From Stieleria bergensis (GTDB taxonomy: Bacteria; Planctomycetota; Planctomycetia; Pirellulales; Pirellulaceae): a DNA stretch of 64,000 nucleotides. The stretch is taken from the NCBI GenBank assembly GCA_007745635.1, contig CP036272.1:5230013-5294012 (forward strand). Reading direction: 5' to 3'. How positions within the stretch are numbered: the stretch's first letter is position 1; each line of letters begins with the position of its first letter. Both the position numbers and the translations under genes were made by a program. The notes under the pieces were generated by a model. It worked only from the letters and a program-made list of their open reading frames with translations, was not told where the DNA came from and made no database searches. Positions 3,991 through 13,431 of the stretch are shown here, in pieces.

Positions 3991-4031
3991 AACGATGCGT
4001 ATGAATTCAGGGGCAAATCCCCGTACGTTTA

Positions 4032-6263: not shown

Positions 6264-6504
6264 CAGTGCCTCCCGTCAAAGCTTCCAACCGTTCGTACTC
6301 GGCCAAGGTCTTTTCCGCTTCCACTTCATCAACCACGCAGATCGCGATCCCCGCATGCACGATGACATACTGAGAAACCTCCGCGTCGGGCACGCAAGCC
6401 ATGTGGACTTCGCGACGAACGCCGGCGAACTGGACCTCGGCTTTGGCGAAGGTGAGATCACGATTGACCCAGCGCACGATTTGACCGGGGATGCCTAAAC
6501 ACAT
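6250..6504 (-). CDS. hypC: Hydrogenase maturation chaperone HypC
   Basis: An 84-residue protein of the HypC/HupF family. The start MCLGIPGQIV carries the essential N-terminal Cys2 that binds the iron and later the large subunit, followed by a small OB-like barrel (REVHMACVPDAEVSQYVIVHAGIAICVVDE). HypC shuttles the Fe(CN)2CO unit between HypD and the apo large subunit. It overlaps the hypF stop (6495) by 10 bases and the hypD start (6263) by 14 bases, so translation is probably coupled through all three. Confidence 0.95.
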   Translation of the reverse strand: MCLGIPGQIVRWVNRDLTFAKAEVQFAGVRREVHMACVPDAEVSQYVIVHAGIAICVVDEVEAEKTLAEYERLEALTGGTDEIP

Positions 6505-8747
6505 GGTTGGCGACTCCGTTGCTGTCTCGATTCGGAAACTACAAGCTGCCCCAAGGCAAGTCCGCCATCACTGACGGGAATCCGACCCGGCATGCGAACG
6601 TCGAGACTGCGTCGATAAGCTTCATTTTGAATGAGCTCCAATAGCACCCGATTTTGGAAGACGCCACCGCACAGGACGCAGGGGATCTCAAGGTTTTGAG
6701 CGGACTGATCGCAGACCAAGTTGGCAACGGCACGGTGAAACTTCATCGCGATGCGGCCGGGTGTAAGTTGGTCGAGGTCGTCGAGGATGTCGCGAACGGC
6801 GGGTCGCCAGTCGAAGTGGCTTGGCGGAAGCCCCTCATCCCCTGCAATGTGTGTTGGATGGGGAATTCCAAACCGATAAGCCGAAGCTTCTTCAGGTTCG
6901 CAAACCGCTTCGAGTCGCATCGCGGCTTCGCCTTCGTCATCGACCGATTCTATGCCCAAAACCAACGCGGCCACGCCATCGAACAAGCGTCCCATGCTGG
7001 AAGTGGTCGGGCCGTGCTCGATCGCGTATCGCATGATGTTGTCGACTGGCTGGCCAACCTGCGAACAAAGTGACTTGGCGATCCGCCACGGTTGCCGAAT
7101 CGCAGTTTCACCACTTGGCAGATTGAAAGAACGTAGCTGCGCAACCCGGCGACATTTTGAAGTGTCCGCCAGCAACACTTCGCCACCCCAAATGGTGCCG
7201 TCGTCGCCGTAGCCAGTTCCATCGAATGAAATCCCAAGGACAGTGTCTTCAAGTAGATCATGTTCCAGCATGGCAGCGGCAACATGGGCGTGGTGATGCT
7301 GCACGTTACTGCGTCTATCAAAGCTTTGCTCCGCCCAGTCAGTGGTGAAGTAGTCAGGGTGTCGGTCGTGGACCGCACACGAAGGATCGACCTGATGCAA
7401 CGAGCTCAGCGAAGAAACGTTCTCCATGAACCGCAAGCGGCTTGATTCGTGATTCATGTCGCCGATGTGCGGCCCCAGCACCAGCGCGTCGCTGGTTCGG
7501 ATCGCAACCGCCACTTTCTGGTGACCACCCGTTGCGATGGCCGGGCTTCCAGTTGGCATCGCGAACGTCATGGGTGCAATCCCACGAGCGGCTCGGATGG
7601 TCATGACGCGGTCGCCGATGCACTGAACCACGCTGTCGTCGATCGGGTGCGTGATGTCACGGTCGTGATGCAGGAACACGTCCGCAATGGATGCCAGTTC
7701 CTGCTGGGCCACTTCGTTTTGATAGATAATCGGTGATCCGTGTGAATTGCCGCTGGTGACAACCAGTGGACGCCCAACTCGATCGACCAACATCAAATGC
7801 AGCATTGATGTGGGCAGCATCAAGCCGACCGTGTTGAGATGAGGCGAGAGTAACGACGACAAGTGTCTGTCCCCAAACGCTCGCAGCAAGACGATCGGCC
7901 CCGCCGGACTTTGCAGGGCGGATTGTTCCGTTTCACTGACGTGGGCAAAACGTCTTGCCGCGTCCACATCGCTGACCATAACTGGCAGCGGTTTGCTGGG
8001 GCGAGCTTTTCGCGTACGCAGCTTTTGGACGGCTTCATCGTTAGTCGCATCGCATACCAACTGATAGCCACCCAGCCCTTTCATGGCTACAATCTTACCC
8101 GCCGTAATCCACTGCGCGAGTCGTTCGATCGAATCCTCCATCATTGCAATTTGGTTGCCGCGGCGATCATCGACCCAGCACCGTGGCCCGCAATCCGGAC
8201 AGCAAATCGTTTGGGCATGAAAACGACGATCGAGTGGGTCGCGATATTCCGCTTCACATCGCGGACACATCGGAAACCGATCCATCGTCGTTGCACCGCG
8301 ATCAAACGGCATGTTTTGCAAGATCGAATACCGTGGCCCACACTTCGCACAGGTGATGAAGGGGTAGCCGAAACGACGATCCGAAATCGACCGTGCTTCC
8401 TCGATGCAGTCGGGACACGTGACCGTATCAAGCGGAACCGCTGTGTGCAGTCGGTCGCTTCCATGACTGTCGATGATGCGGAAATCGCCAATTTCGGCGT
8501 GTTCCGCTGGCTCACTACTGAATTCAATGTTCGGGAATGTCTGCCTTAATTTGTCTTGGAAACGATCCAATTCGATCGCCGAACCATTAGCCGAAATCTC
8601 AACACCGTTTGACGAGTTACAAACCGTTCCGGCGAGACATTGCTGCGTCGCAAGACACGCGATCGTTGGCCGAACCCCTTGGCCCTGAACCAGACCTCGC
8701 ATCAATATCCGAACCGATGTTTTCGTTGGTGCAATCGCCAGAGTCAT
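6495..8747 (-). CDS. hypF: Carbamoyltransferase HypF
   Basis: A 750-residue protein with the full HypF domain order. An acylphosphatase-like domain comes first (VRILMRGLVQGQGVRP, about 12-95). Two zinc fingers follow (CPDC...CAKCGPRY and CPRC...CPDCGPRC, about 110-190), then a YrdC/Sua5-like domain (about 205-390, with KGLGGYQLVCDA), then a Kae1-like C-terminal domain with VQHHHAHVAA metal histidines and GISFDGTGYGDDGTIWGGE. It converts carbamoyl phosphate into carbamoyl-adenylate and loads the carbamoyl group onto the HypE cysteine. Its start overlaps the hypB stop by ATGA (8744-8747). Confidence 0.97.
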   Translation of the reverse strand: MTLAIAPTKTSVRILMRGLVQGQGVRPTIACLATQQCLAGTVCNSSNGVEISANGSAIELDRFQDKLRQTFPNIEFSSEPAEHAEIGDFRIIDSHGSDRLHTAVPLDTVTCPDCIEEARSISDRRFGYPFITCAKCGPRYSILQNMPFDRGATTMDRFPMCPRCEAEYRDPLDRRFHAQTICCPDCGPRCWVDDRRGNQIAMMEDSIERLAQWITAGKIVAMKGLGGYQLVCDATNDEAVQKLRTRKARPSKPLPVMVSDVDAARRFAHVSETEQSALQSPAGPIVLLRAFGDRHLSSLLSPHLNTVGLMLPTSMLHLMLVDRVGRPLVVTSGNSHGSPIIYQNEVAQQELASIADVFLHHDRDITHPIDDSVVQCIGDRVMTIRAARGIAPMTFAMPTGSPAIATGGHQKVAVAIRTSDALVLGPHIGDMNHESSRLRFMENVSSLSSLHQVDPSCAVHDRHPDYFTTDWAEQSFDRRSNVQHHHAHVAAAMLEHDLLEDTVLGISFDGTGYGDDGTIWGGEVLLADTSKCRRVAQLRSFNLPSGETAIRQPWRIAKSLCSQVGQPVDNIMRYAIEHGPTTSSMGRLFDGVAALVLGIESVDDEGEAAMRLEAVCEPEEASAYRFGIPHPTHIAGDEGLPPSHFDWRPAVRDILDDLDQLTPGRIAMKFHRAVANLVCDQSAQNLEIPCVLCGGVFQNRVLLELIQNEAYRRSLDVRMPGRIPVSDGGLALGQLVVSESRQQRSRQPCV

Positions 8748-9421
8748 GACTCGGACGCCTCCGCCAGCATTGCATCGCGACGTTGTTCCAGCAGGTCACA
8801 CCAAGCGTCGATGCCGATGTCATTGATCGCCGACGTCTCGATCACTTGCATGTCCTCGCGGATTAGCCGAGCATCCTCGGTCACGTTGGCAACGTCGAAC
8901 GGCACGTGTGGCAACAGGTCGGTCTTGGTGATGACCATGACCTCGCTGGTGCGAAACATCTTCGGGTACTTGCCGGGTTTGTCATCACCTTCCGTCGTGC
9001 TAATGCAGACCACACGAAGGTGCTCGGCCAGATCATGCGACGCGGGACAAACCAAGTTGCCAATGTTCTCGATGAACAAGAAGTCCCTTGGTACTTGTGG
9101 CAGTTTCGCGAGTCCCTTTTCAACCAATGAGAGTTCCAAATGACAGGCACCGCCAGTCGTCAGTTGCTCGACGGCCACGTAGGGACGAAGCCGCTCGGCA
9201 TCGCGGTCCGTGGCCAAATCGCCGACCAGCACGGCGACGTTCCAGCGGTCACGCCATCGTCGGCAAGTCGCTTCGAGCAAACTGGTTTTGCCAGAACCCG
9301 GTGACGAAACCAAATTGACAACGAACGTTCCCCGCTCAGTGAATTGACGACGCAGTCCCTCGGCTGCCGCCCTTTTTTCAGCTTGAATGTCACGATCGAT
9401 TGCAATGGTTTCAGCGGGCAT
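8744..9421 (-). CDS. hypB: Nickel-insertion GTPase HypB
   Basis: A SIMIBI-class GTPase of 225 residues from the chosen start. It drives GTP-dependent nickel insertion into the hydrogenase large subunit together with HypA. The P-loop SSPGSGKTSLLEAT lies near residue 40, GDLATDRDAERL and ENIGNLVCPA are conserved HypB motifs, and VITKTDLLPHV holds the guanine-specificity motif. There is no N-terminal His-rich nickel store. The upstream ATG at 9439 is possible, but the ATG at 9421 has GAAGGAG six bases before it and is preferred; either way the gene overlaps hypA (stop at 9411). Confidence 0.95.
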   Translation of the reverse strand: MPAETIAIDRDIQAEKRAAAEGLRRQFTERGTFVVNLVSSPGSGKTSLLEATCRRWRDRWNVAVLVGDLATDRDAERLRPYVAVEQLTTGGACHLELSLVEKGLAKLPQVPRDFLFIENIGNLVCPASHDLAEHLRVVCISTTEGDDKPGKYPKMFRTSEVMVITKTDLLPHVPFDVANVTEDARLIREDMQVIETSAINDIGIDAWCDLLEQRRDAMLAEASES

Positions 9422-9818
9422 GATTAGCTCCTTCGGCAAGCGTCAGCGAGATCAAGCGAAACTCATCACCGCTGATGACTTGCACTTCTCCCGACCCACA
9501 GGACACGCAGCGAAAAACGAAATCGGACAAATCACTCTCGGCATGACACTGCGTGCAGCGAACGATCAACGGCACCTCGAGAACCTCTAGCCTTGTACTT
9601 GCCGTAGTGGATCTTGCTAAAGATCCCTCGCCCTCTGGATCTTTAGCAAGATCCACTACGCCGCACTGCTCCTCAAACGCAATCTTCACAAGATCTACCT
9701 CGACGCCCGAGAGCGGGCCGACCTCGACGGTCACTTCGGCGACGTCGGCTTCATCATGCTCCGCCGCAATCTGGTCGACCTGTCTCAACAGACCCCTAAC
9801 CAGCGATCGTTCGTGCAC
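9411..9818 (-). CDS. hypA: Nickel metallochaperone HypA with an in-frame repeat insertion
   Basis: HypA delivers nickel to the hydrogenase large subunit with HypB. The start is set at GTG 9818: it gives VHERSLVRGLL, placing His2 (the nickel ligand) and Glu3 where the family needs them, and AGGAG lies seven bases upstream. The zinc site is intact (C88xxC91, C104xxC107). The protein is 135 residues, against about 115 for typical HypA. Residues 54-72 (VVDLAKDPEGEGSLARSTT) have no family counterpart and coincide base for base with the perfect palindrome at 9603-9660; removing them restores normal length and joins FEEQCG to LEVLEVP. The insertion lies in the linker between the nickel and zinc parts, so function may be kept. 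It overlaps the adjoining protease gene (stop at 9796). Confidence 0.93.
   Translation of the reverse strand: MHERSLVRGLLRQVDQIAAEHDEADVAEVTVEVGPLSGVEVDLVKIAFEEQCGVVDLAKDPEGEGSLARSTTASTRLEVLEVPLIVRCTQCHAESDLSDFVFRCVSCGSGEVQVISGDEFRLISLTLAEGANHAR
9603..9660. repeat. 24-bp perfect inverted repeat inside hypA
   Basis: The left arm (9603-9626) begins CGTAGTGGATCTTGC and ends AAAGATCC; the right arm (9637-9660) is its exact reverse complement, separated by a 10-base loop CTCGCCCTCT. The element is translated in the hypA frame without a stop. Its perfect symmetry inside a coding region, and the matching 19-residue excess in HypA, mark it as an inserted palindromic element and not part of the ancestral gene. 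Confidence 0.93.
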
Positions 9819-10500
9819 GGCACCACTCCTCCGCGATTGCGTCAACGCAGGGGCGAACTGCCGCCGCGGATTGTTGTGTCATCTTTGACATCGGATCAAA
9901 CGCAATCGCATTGCCCACCCAAATCTCCACATGGTCGATCCGTTTCCCCAACGTTTGTGCGAGCTGCAGCGTTTGGTGCAGCCCAAAATCATGCGTTCCC
10001 CGAACGGGACGACTCGCCATCCACTGGCGGTCAACGGCATCCGCGTAGTTCAGTCGCCGAAACGGTGTCTCCGTGGGCAGGCCAACCCCGGCATCGACAC
10101 TAGCAACACGATCGAAGTCGTCGAGCATCGGGATGACGTCGATGGGGTTGTTGCACTTGAAAATGCAAATTTCACCTGCGGGCCAACGGCCCATCGGTTT
10201 GCCTAGCCCAGCCTGAAGGGCTGGGTCGTCGGTCGTCCCCCCATCCCCGTCGGGCCAACGGTCCAACCGTTTGTTGGGAGGCATATTGCCAACAAACGAC
10301 CGGGCCTTTGGCCCTTCGGCGTATTCGAGCCTGTCGATTCCCAGCCCTGCGGGCTGGGCTAGGCAATCGTCCGAGGCGTTGCCCCTTGCGGGTGAACCAA
10401 AGCGACGGCTCAGGCAGTCAGCGACCGCCCAACCGAACTGATCGTCGCCGTGCGGGCTGCCGATTCCGATGATCGCGATGCGTTTAGGAACGTCGTTCAT
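9796..10500 (-). CDS. Hydrogenase maturation protease (HyaD/HupD family) with an in-frame repeat insertion
   Basis: This endopeptidase removes the C-terminal tail of the [NiFe] large subunit after nickel insertion. The start at 10500 overlaps the large-subunit stop by ATGA and begins MNDVPKRIAIIGIGSPHGDDQFG, the family N-terminus with its metal-site Asp. VASVDAG (D136) and THDFGLHQTL (H170) supply the other two nickel-sensing ligands. The protein is 234 residues, while the family is about 160. Residues 35-108 (10177-10398) form the excess and are rich in Gly, Pro, Arg and Trp; they coincide with a cluster of palindromes also found at 4.0 kb. Removing them gives 160 residues and joins SRRF to GEICIFKCNNPIDVIPML. 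All catalytic ligands remain. Confidence 0.9.
   Translation of the reverse strand: MNDVPKRIAIIGIGSPHGDDQFGWAVADCLSRRFGSPARGNASDDCLAQPAGLGIDRLEYAEGPKARSFVGNMPPNKRLDRWPDGDGGTTDDPALQAGLGKPMGRWPAGEICIFKCNNPIDVIPMLDDFDRVASVDAGVGLPTETPFRRLNYADAVDRQWMASRPVRGTHDFGLHQTLQLAQTLGKRIDHVEIWVGNAIAFDPMSKMTQQSAAAVRPCVDAIAEEWCRARTIAG
10178..10364. repeat. Composite palindromic repeat inside the hydrogenase protease gene
   Basis: This 187-base stretch contains GGGCC/GGCCC (10180-10192), CCCAGCC/GGGCTGGG (about 10207-10224), a GGGCCAACGG block near 10252, an AACAAACGACC block near 10290 with GGGCCTTTGGCCC, and CCCAGCCC/GGGCTGGG (about 10340-10356) with a flanking GCCTAGCC/GGCTAGGC pair at the outer ends. The same hairpin words occur at 4032-4102. 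The whole block is read in frame by the protease gene without a stop. Confidence 0.85.
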
Positions 10501-11792
10501 GTCCGCTCCATTTCCAACGTCAGAAAATGGGTCGAGCAACTGATGCACGGGTCGTAGTTGCGAATCAGTTTTTCGCATTCCGCCGCCACAATGTCGTCTG
10601 GCTGGTCGAGCAACCGTGGCAAATAGTCTCGCAAGTCGGATTCGATCTGCAGTTGGTTTTGCGAGGTCGGCGGAACGATTTTGGATGACGCCACGGTTCC
10701 GTCGTCGTTGATCCGATAGTGGTGGTAGATCATTCCTCGGGGGGCTTCGGTCGCCGCACATCCTTCGCTTTCCCGATGTTGATAAGGGCGAAACGGCTCT
10801 GGCGGTGGCTGATAGGCTTCGATGATTCCGATCGCTTCCTCCAACGCGTGAACAACTTCGATGCTGCGGGCGATGATCGAATGAAAACGGTTGCGCAGCG
10901 GAATCGGCGGGCAGATTTCCTCCGCTAGCTTTCGTGCCGCTGGAAAAAGCTGCTCTTGATTCAACTCCAGCCTCGCCAGCGGTCCCAAGAAATACGGTGC
11001 GGCGCTATCGCGCCGTTTAGATTGAAGTGCCGTGCTGTGTGGGGCGTGTTGTTCGCCGAAATGTTGCTCGTACTCTTCCACCGAAATTGGCGAGTGAATT
11101 GTCGAGGCGATCGCGCCTTCGTTCATCGGGTACTCATCGTCGTTCTGCAACGCAACCAGTTCGCAGTGGATGTTGAGTTCGGGGAAGTCGAACGTCGCGA
11201 CCCAGCGAGCCAGGTCGATCGCCGCATCGAGCGCCCAGCGGAGATCCGATAGCAACTCGGTCAGCTCGTCGCGTGATGGCAATCGATAAAAGCCACCGAC
11301 ACGTACATTGACCGGATGAATGGCACGTCCACCGAGGACTTCCAGCACACGGTTACCAATCTTCTTGATCCGCAGCCCGTCGTTGACGCGGTCGGGAAAC
11401 TTTTCAGCCAGTTCGATGCCGCTATGACAATCAAAGAAGTCCGGTGCGTTCAGCATGACGATGTGTAGCACGTGGCTTTCAATCCATTCCGCGCAATACA
11501 ACAATCGACGAAGCGCTCGCACGCCCGACGAGATTTCGACATCCAAGGCATTCTCAATCGCGTGAACAGACGTCATCTGGTACGCGACGGGACAGATTCC
11601 GCAAATCCTTGCCGTGATATCGGGGACCTCTTCGATCGCACGCCCCCGCAGAAACGATTCAAAAAACCGCGGCGGTTCGTAGATCGTCAGCTTCACGCTT
11701 TCGATCTGGTCACCGCTCACGCGAACGTGCAAAGCTCCTTCGCCTTCGACTCGCGTCAATGCATTGACGGTGATCTTGCGGTTGTCGCTCAT
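10497..11792 (-). CDS. [NiFe] hydrogenase large (catalytic, alpha) subunit, group 3b-like
   Basis: A 431-residue large subunit holding the Ni-Fe active site. The N-terminal ligand motif RICGICPVAYQ (C64, C67) and the C-terminal motif DPCISCSTH (C416, C419, H422) are intact. Nine residues follow His422 (FLTLEMERT), the tail removed by the protease encoded next. EPPRFFESFLRGR and EVPDITARICGIC are typical of soluble, NAD(P)-linked group 3b enzymes (sulfhydrogenase alpha). No Tat signal is present, as expected for a cytoplasmic large subunit. It follows the small subunit with a small overlap and precedes the maturation protease by ATGA. Subgroup assignment rests on motif memory and the flavin subunit context. 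Confidence 0.93.
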   Translation of the reverse strand: MSDNRKITVNALTRVEGEGALHVRVSGDQIESVKLTIYEPPRFFESFLRGRAIEEVPDITARICGICPVAYQMTSVHAIENALDVEISSGVRALRRLLYCAEWIESHVLHIVMLNAPDFFDCHSGIELAEKFPDRVNDGLRIKKIGNRVLEVLGGRAIHPVNVRVGGFYRLPSRDELTELLSDLRWALDAAIDLARWVATFDFPELNIHCELVALQNDDEYPMNEGAIASTIHSPISVEEYEQHFGEQHAPHSTALQSKRRDSAAPYFLGPLARLELNQEQLFPAARKLAEEICPPIPLRNRFHSIIARSIEVVHALEEAIGIIEAYQPPPEPFRPYQHRESEGCAATEAPRGMIYHHYRINDDGTVASSKIVPPTSQNQLQIESDLRDYLPRLLDQPDDIVAAECEKLIRNYDPCISCSTHFLTLEMERT

Positions 11793-12568
11793 GTCGACCC
11801 CGATTCAAGACGATCGCTCTCAATCTGAAACACGTTCGCGGCGGCGTTCATGTTGCGTAGTGCGTGGACCATTTGCGTTTCGGTCGTCGCTCCCGCGAGG
11901 TGATGCGTCGACAGCGCCGGACAGTTTGCCTGCGCAGCCGGACCGAAACACCCGTAGCACGGCCGATCGTAGGCCGGGCAAATCGCACCGCAGCCGGCCT
12001 GCGTCACGGGCCCAAGACACGGCAAACCTTGCGTCACGACAAGGCAGACGGTCCCGCGTCGCTTGCATTCGATGCACACACTGTGTCGCGGCGTTCGTGG
12101 GCTGCGATCGGCGATCAGTGCCGCAAGCACTTCCAGCAACTGATGCCGATCAATCGGGCAACCTCGCAGTTCAAAATCGACAGCGACGTGATCGGCGATC
12201 GGGGTACTGGTGGACAGGGTCTCGATATACTCGGGGTGGGCATAGACCGAAGCGATGAATTCTTCGTGATCGGCCCAATTGCGAAGGGCTTGGATCCCGC
12301 CGGCGGTCGCACATGCTCCAATCGTCACCAGAGTCTTTGATTGGTGACGAATCTCACGAATTCGCTGAGCATCTTTCTCTGTCGTGATCGAACCTTCGAT
12401 CAACGCAACATCGAACGGCCCCGGATCGACGCGGCTGCTGGCTTCCAGAAAGTGGACGATCTCGATCATGCCGGCCAGTTCAATCAGTTCATCCTCACAC
12501 GACAGCAACGACAACTGGCAACCGTCGCAGGACGCAAACTTGAACACACCGAGACGTTTCTTGTTCAT
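11789..12568 (-). CDS. [NiFe] hydrogenase small (delta) subunit
   Basis: A 259-residue subunit of the NADH:ubiquinone oxidoreductase 20-kDa family that carries electrons by Fe-S clusters between the active site and the flavin subunit. The proximal cluster ligands are seen in FASCDGCQLS (C14, C17), TIGACATAGG and LRGCPIDRHQ. A Cys-rich C-terminal region (CIECKRRGTVC, LPCLGPVTQAGCGAICPAYDRPCYGC in two parts) can bind two more clusters. The start at 12568 is chosen because its ATG overlaps the TGA of the flavin gene (12565-12567) and gives MNKKRLGVFKF; the longer open frame upstream lies within that gene. No twin-arginine signal, so the enzyme is cytoplasmic. Confidence 0.93.
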   Translation of the reverse strand: MNKKRLGVFKFASCDGCQLSLLSCEDELIELAGMIEIVHFLEASSRVDPGPFDVALIEGSITTEKDAQRIREIRHQSKTLVTIGACATAGGIQALRNWADHEEFIASVYAHPEYIETLSTSTPIADHVAVDFELRGCPIDRHQLLEVLAALIADRSPRTPRHSVCIECKRRGTVCLVVTQGLPCLGPVTQAGCGAICPAYDRPCYGCFGPAAQANCPALSTHHLAGATTETQMVHALRNMNAAANVFQIESDRLESGST

Positions 12569-13431
12569 AGCGAATCGACCCTCATCAATCGGTTGACTTG
12601 ATCGTATCGCAACACCGGACCGTCCTTGCAAACAAAATGCGGTCCCAACTGGCAATGACCGCAATGACCCATCGCGCAATTCATGTTTCGTTCCAGCGAC
12701 AACCAAAGACTGGTTCGGGGAATGCCTCGTTCACGAACCGCGCGGATCGCGTACGTCATCATCACCTCCGGACCGCAACAAAACAGCATCGTCCGATCCG
12801 AACGAACGATGCCAACGCGGTTGACCAACAACGTGACGACGCCGACGTGACCCTGCCAATCCGACTGTGCCCGATCCACGGTCGTTTGCACGTCAATGTC
12901 ATCCGATCGCCATGCCTGATACTCGTCTTGGTATAGCAAATCAGCCGGAGTGCGGGCTCCCATCAGCAGGCATACTCTGCCAAAGACCCCGCGGTTCGAT
13001 CGGATAAAGTCAATCACAGGCCGAAGCGGAGCCAACCCGATCCCTCCGGCGACCAAGATCAAATCCTTCCCGCGAACTGAGTCGATCGGCCAGTATGAAC
13101 CGAACGGTCCGCGGACACCCAGTGAGTCTCCCACCGATAGCCGCGCGAGGGTCTGCGTCACGTTGCCGACAGCGCGAACGGTGTGGACGATCGGTTCGCC
13201 AGGCTGAGTCAGATGACTGAGCGATATCGCGGACTCGCCGACGCCGGGCAGATACAACATGTTGAACTGCCCTGCCCTAGCTTCGTACGTCGAGCGATCG
13301 TCCGCATCGGACAATTCAAGCTGATACGTCTTCACACCCGGCGTCTCATCATGGATGTCGGCGATTCGAGCTGCCGTCACCGCCCACGGTTCAGTTCGCT
13401 GCAACAGCATGACCCGATTCTTCTTTCGCAT
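12565..13431 (-). CDS. Hydrogenase flavin/NAD(P)-binding (gamma) subunit
   Basis: A 288-residue protein of the ferredoxin-NADP reductase family that links the hydrogenase to NAD(P)(H). The FAD-binding barrel comes first (AGQFNMLYLPGVGESAISLS), then the nucleotide-binding fold (VAGGIGLAPLRPVIDFI and LFCCGPEVMM), then a C-terminal [2Fe-2S] site (MNCAMGHCGHCQLG with a later Cys in HFVCKDGP). This layout matches sulfhydrogenase gamma subunits and dihydroorotate dehydrogenase PyrK. The start could be 13431 or the ATG at 13410 (MLLQRTEPW); both overlap the end of the universal stress gene. The usual beta subunit gene that lies upstream in group 3b operons is absent. Confidence 0.88.
   Translation of the reverse strand: MRKKNRVMLLQRTEPWAVTAARIADIHDETPGVKTYQLELSDADDRSTYEARAGQFNMLYLPGVGESAISLSHLTQPGEPIVHTVRAVGNVTQTLARLSVGDSLGVRGPFGSYWPIDSVRGKDLILVAGGIGLAPLRPVIDFIRSNRGVFGRVCLLMGARTPADLLYQDEYQAWRSDDIDVQTTVDRAQSDWQGHVGVVTLLVNRVGIVRSDRTMLFCCGPEVMMTYAIRAVRERGIPRTSLWLSLERNMNCAMGHCGHCQLGPHFVCKDGPVLRYDQVNRLMRVDSL

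Follow-up and report, generated by a model that had tools for sequence, protein, structure and literature searches.

Most discussion of REPs casts them as selfish DNA or else as extragenic hairpins of a generic sort. Those tagged with GTAG, as described in PMC3733652, consist of a short hairpin, form head-to-head dimers and in some cases lie in frame within ORFs, where they encode 20–30 residues; reports of them extend to the PVC superphylum, R. baltica included, and some dimers are located within larger palindromes. The REPINs of Pseudomonas fluorescens, according to PMC3116915, lie outside genes and are linked to a flanking RAYT gene, and the RPE-4 and RPE-6 elements of R. conorii carry a CGTC tag (PMC3733652). 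The window analyzed here, a 64,000-nt stretch of Stieleria bergensis contig CP036272.1, contains a palindrome of this kind inside the hypA gene of a hydrogenase operon (Table 1).

The palindrome in hypA and its known relatives

A perfect palindrome read in frame within hypA had been predicted, and this was borne out: positions 9603-9626 and 9637-9660 are complementary at 24 of 24 nucleotides and are separated by 10 nt. The element reads VVDLAKDPEGEGSLARSTT. Each arm is built as GTAG-T-GGATCTT-loop-AAGATCC, that is, a tag followed by a 7-bp stem, and the two arms are set head to head with the tags outside. When the window was searched with the arm 20-mer (≤3 mismatches), the only two matches were the arms of the palindrome, against an expectation of 0 from 100 shuffles. 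The RNA fold of 9585-9680 reached -50.4 kcal/mol, compared with -24.5 ± 2.85 kcal/mol for 200 shuffles, none of which was equally low (z -9.1). Rfam returned sub-threshold matches only: the palindrome matched two microRNA models, and another part of hypA matched one sRNA model.

Table 1. Positions in the window of the palindrome, its parts and the genes of the hydrogenase operon
Feature	Position	Strand	Remarks
Whole palindrome	9603..9660	.	24 + 10 + 24; family unit of 56 nt, 9604-9659
Arm 1	9604..9626	+	GTAG tag + REP hairpin GGATCTT-GCTA-AAGATCC
Spacer	9627..9636	.	10 nt; fast-changing portion
Arm 2	9637..9659	-	Inverted copy of arm 1
hypA	9411..9818	-	135 codons + stop; GTG start at 9818, stop at 9411; element = residues 54-72
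hypB (CobW/HypB/UreG domain)	8744..9421	-	Equivalent place in G172
hypF	6495..8747	-	
Nickel-dependent hydrogenase large subunit	10497..11792	-	
Hydrogenase small subunit (Oxidored_q6)	11789..12571	-	

The traits of the described systems were examined one by one. A tag at the end of a 6–13 bp stem with a short loop and a head-to-head dimer with outside tags, both typical of GTAG-tagged REPs, were found in the hypA palindrome, as was the inverted REP doublet foldable as a hairpin that is typical of REPINs. The hypA palindrome is a head-to-head dimer of GTAG-tagged REPs with the shape of a REPIN. It resembles the GTAG-tagged REPs of PMC3733652 in tag, short hairpin, head-to-head dimer and in-frame residence; it differs in that its spacer is fixed at 10 nt with a variable sequence (the R. 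baltica families being compared by description), and in that the hypA copy is common to two genera and alone in its genome. Like the REPINs of PMC3116915, it is an inverted REP doublet hairpin with a spacer less conserved than the REPs, whereas the hypA copy is intragenic and no RAYT was found beside the family. The Rickettsia-like behavior claimed in the original prediction was retained in one respect, a palindromic repeat translated in frame within a gene; compared with the Rickettsia elements described in PMC3733652, however, the tag is GTAG rather than the CGTC of RPE-4 and RPE-6, the sequence and the phylum are others, and in-gene copies are uncommon.

Because in-gene REP dimers have already been published (PMC3733652), the kind of element is known. 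Among the matches listed in the literature search, for which subscription journals were mostly outside coverage, there was no publication on the palindrome sequence in planctomycetes and nothing on the orthologous retention of an in-gene REP. The new part is the slowly changing arms, an unusual evolutionary signature.

The product of hypA matched the Pfam HypA family (E 5.9e-20), and His2, Glu3 and the four Cys residues were invariant across 13 aligned HypAs, in agreement with the predicted protein of 135 residues with intact metal sites. The 19 extra residues that had also been predicted correspond to the 19 codons spanned by the palindrome; the net gain of HypA is 15 residues, according to the alignment with 12 palindrome-free relatives. 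The AlphaFold model (mean pLDDT 86.5) showed a normal HypA fold in which the insert is modelled, at low confidence, as a loop running from helix 41-53 to strand 76-81, and its 14 PDB matches at E <0.001 were all HypA chains, several in complex with HyhL or HypB. Alignment, frame and model together show a net gain of 15 residues with the metal sites kept. The element occupies its stop-free frame and falls within the loop joining helix 41-53 to the strand that follows, which lengthened HypA in this way. The insert is a clean example of a protein absorbing repeat DNA.

A repeat family in Pirellulaceae

The whole-element pattern (≤3 mismatches) was found in 16 of the 149 Pirellulaceae genomes searched, with a maximum of 72 copies; 5 of the 14 genomes belonging to the window's genus contained it. 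Copies numbered 53 in G013 (the window's genus), 57 in G049, 72 in G125 (Rhodopirellula sallentina) and 31 in G150 (Rubripirellula obstinata, which also belongs to Pirellulaceae). When 84,980 species genomes, possibly without the window's own records, were scanned for the exact pattern, 66 stretches were returned, every record being titled as a planctomycete. That HypA here shows no more than its usual variation in length, with the palindrome an effect of chance or codon usage, has a probability close to nil: the length of the HypA loop does vary slightly at this place, but the 23-nt arms with their 10-nt spacing recur in many genomes, mainly outside recognizable genes, shuffles give 0 matches, and the existence of the family refutes the explanation.

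The window genome holds a single copy, since the arm 20-mer (≤2 mismatches) and the whole element match here alone; a looser arm pattern gave three extra lone matches with two mismatches each, which form no element. Repetition within the genome, a trait of GTAG-tagged REPs, was found in relatives and not in the window genome (1 copy). Judged from sequence, the single copy argues against the palindrome still replicating there. The original prediction had taken an arm unique in the genome as a sign against a mobile insertion; the arm is indeed unique in the window genome, but this measure was too strict because the family exists in relatives.

In the sampled loci (≤3 mismatches), the arms of the family are near-invariant and the spacers variable, with 41 distinct spacers in 47 copies of G049, 15 in 21 of G150 and 9 in 20 of G013. 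Perfect arms were present in 63 of 120 distinct elements. Arm-to-arm correction was rejected as a general cause of this perfection, because outside arm positions 14 and 15 (1-based) one-arm changes dominate (69, against 1 on both arms); positions 14 and 15 covary, with 40 one-arm changes and 18 that are the same on both arms (∼7 expected if independent). Many copies of G013 and N. pilleata are nested in a MITE-like element of 119–161 bp, usually 121, with the ends CTAGTGGTCTG..CAGACCACTAG; N. pilleata copies were found in G049 loci in 0 of 26 cases. The R. obstinata copies with repeated spacers have flanks resembling the MITE-like ends, and other copies of the family are naked. The MITE-like element contains the same palindrome as hypA, whereas the hypA copy is without its flanks, and no outer inverted repeats were seen there. 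At one R. obstinata locus (L185, 110-3105), a single pair of MITE-like ends was located 2,996 bp apart.

No consistent target sequence or target duplication was seen in the family. Adjacent duplications of at least 3 nt occurred at 8 of 128 sides versus 3.0 expected (p 0.008), and those of at least 4 nt numbered 3 versus 1.2 expected (p 0.12), several of the rows being related. A spacer made of 10 target bases enclosed by the arms, whose 48 nt would be in frame, was considered and rejected: the spacers show position bias, and sharing between spacer and flank beyond the adjacent bases was not above shuffles. Adjacent sharing of at least 3 nt between spacer and flank was found 8 times versus 3.0 in shuffles (p 0.008), a figure to which related rows may contribute. 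Beside full palindromes at five loci (L136, L172, L177, L180 and L182), extra solo arms were accompanied by part of the same spacer and flank, a pattern resembling a tandem duplication of arm plus flank.

The Y1_Tnp matches of G013, G049, G125 and G150 were all (54/54) without an arm within 1.5 kb, and the same held for 30 Y1_Tnp loci of the window's genus; within the former four genomes, the richest in copies, a single 3-mismatch arm lay ∼2 kb from a weak Y1_Tnp match. A cognate RAYT flanked by the same REP, as in REPINs, was not found in the data examined. By its architecture, the element could plausibly have been moved by a RAYT/IS200-type transposase acting in trans, although none was found linked to it.

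When the loop contains TT, as is common, GTA GTG GAT is the sole stop-free frame that can be read from the sequence. A collection of 155 distinct copies (≤8 mismatches, some from clustered arrays) gave 36 open frames above the length filter, 33 of them in the GTA GTG GAT frame; the copies of the window and of G172 are among these 36, and a few elements were counted on both strands. In-gene assignments were based on open frames and Pfam rather than on annotation. Pfam was applied to 20 of these 36 frames (two of the 20 being one gene); among the other 16, two are hypA. The element was located between domains in two genes (a kinase/AAA protein of R. obstinata and an alpha-L-rhamnosidase of R. 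sallentina), directly behind an ADP-ribosylglycohydrolase domain in one frame, and upstream of the domain in seven frames (six genes), where translation may start later; ten of the 20 scanned frames were domain-free. Around the insert of the R. obstinata kinase gene there are ∼10 more extra residues (a 29-residue gap relative to a homologue), and the loop of the R. sallentina rhamnosidase is too variable for the insert length to be fixed. In-frame residence in protein-coding genes, the trait of Rickettsia elements, was found for hypA in two genera, the kinase/AAA protein and the rhamnosidase. Read-through inside genes occurs, yet it is uncommon in the family.

Near 1498 of L010 and near 8964 of L167, a palindrome common to G004 and G049 adjoins a Shine-Dalgarno-like AGGAGG and an ATG. 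The reading frame opened by this ATG is conserved, and both genomes share changed arm-2 bases that preserve the pairing of the small hairpin.

An insertion site shared by two genera

Searching 241 family genomes for HypA yielded 19 proteins at E 1e-14 or better, and the palindrome was carried by two, the window and G172, a species of the genus of R. obstinata whose hypA was retrieved with an insert-containing query. Among the other 17, the 15 seen in alignments were all without the palindrome (L078 and L327 lay outside the alignments). Palindrome-free hypA genes were found in three further members of G172's genus and in G013 of the window's genus, in which a close HypA of the operon was present in just 2 of 14 genomes. 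No base-exact empty site was found, the nearest insert-free HypA genes being ≤54% identical. The G172 copy shares its hypA codon and reading frame with the window copy and lies in a syntenic operon, and the sequence flanking the element is dissimilar between the two genes. In a 400-kb sample (5% of the G172 genome), no arm was found besides those in hypA. The carriers paired in a HypA tree of 29 rows with four insert residues kept (94/89), and in one of 14 rows with the insert columns fully removed (72/84). The predicted mobile insertion stands in so far as the repeat family exists and the inspected relatives lack the insert; a recent event is unlikely, because an orthologue in another genus shares the palindrome at the same codon.

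Between the window and G172, a comparison that was not selected on arm DNA, the arms were identical at 20/23 and 21/23 positions (41/46 in all), the spacer at 2/10, and the flanking hypA at 110/159 and 109/190. Third codon positions were identical at 13/14 in the arms versus 53/117 over the remainder of hypA (p 0.0006), and when stretches of 14 third positions were taken from eight orthologous operon gene pairs, 2 of 2591 reached 13, both at one place in hypD. The contrast was weaker when only codons for identical residues were counted (9/11 vs 33/69, p 0.036). One paired position is changed on both arms, C-G in the window and T-A in G172, with pairing preserved; three pairs are broken in the G172 palindrome, so its hairpin has not been kept perfect. 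In this one pair, the arms changed far less than the third positions of the gene while the spacer drifted. Three more orthologous pairs (R. obstinata/G049, G004/G049 and G013/G010) agree in direction, and the four pairs pooled gave 169/184 for arms, 296/480 for flanks and 27/40 for spacers, in which the three extra pairs weigh less because the search pattern required fairly good arms in both members. A candidate fifth pair (L260/L182) was excluded from the count because only distant flanks matched.

We consider it probable that a GTAG REP dimer was inserted once, long ago, in the ancestor of the operon, and that its arms have since been constrained as DNA or RNA. The shared codon, the syntenic operon and arms that match better than the rest of hypA make it most likely that the insertion is old, has been passed on with the hydrogenase operon and is constrained in its arms. 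A dimer of the Pirellulaceae-wide family would have entered hypA once, in the ancestor of the operon present today in the window's species and G172, and the likeliest reason for the slow change would be that the arms were held as a hairpin or a bound site, in DNA or in the hypA mRNA. A single ancestral insertion, inheritance with the operon and a present constraint on the hairpin are what we infer from these comparisons.

The known carriers are two only, and the C-G/T-A difference would also fit two insertions of separate subfamilies. That the family entered hypA twice, independently, at one and the same codon in two lineages (owing to a tolerant loop or a preferred site), with arms younger than the divergence of the gene, is nevertheless unlikely. 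The unrelated spacers (2/10), the paired position that differs on both arms as it would between subfamilies, and the moderate tree support after removal of the insert (72/84) are in keeping with two events; on the other side, nucleotide position and frame are identical although the adjoining sequence is dissimilar, and the family has no consistent target sequence or duplication. Since the window genome has just the one copy and the 400-kb G172 sample contains no further arm, chance arrival at the same codon is very unlikely.

Refreshment of the arms of a single old insertion by gene conversion from other copies, with spacers swapped as well and no function needed, is distinctly improbable. The hypA spacer has been replaced, and copy-rich genomes do show near-invariant arms with differing spacers, but no donor copy is present today in the window genome or in the sampled 5% of G172, and the spacer was kept in two of the three further orthologous pairs (10/10 and 9/10). 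Returning to one old insertion with constrained arms, we put forward only tentatively, and with some doubt, that a formerly mobile REP dimer was captured in the gene and kept across genera because selection acts on it as DNA or RNA, in a genome that lacks all other members of the family, and that it may serve the hydrogenase operon as a cis hairpin or a binding site instead of being selfish DNA. A REP confined to a gene, whose age is indicated by an orthologue in another genus and which has no other copy in its genome, makes it possible to tell conservation by copying from conservation by function.

A second insert in the operon

The next operon gene, an ORF at 9796-10761 on the minus strand, contains a second in-frame palindromic insert at about 10170-10400 of the window. 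From its position and a motif we take this ORF to be a putative hydrogenase maturation protease; Pfam gave no name for it or for its G172 orthologue. The insert corresponds to a 75-residue gap relative to the G172 orthologue and contains two inverted-repeat pairs. Its repeat (TTGCCTAGCCCAGCC..) occurs at 4029, 10199 and 10352 of the window and belongs to a family distinct from the hypA palindrome. The 58 Y1_Tnp loci, 189,921 bases in total, yielded 22 matches, all of them in L063, L068 and L069; the other loci, with 1,656,322 bases, yielded 2. The repeat clusters beside Y1_Tnp genes in three genomes of the window's genus, and it may be a true RAYT-linked REP.
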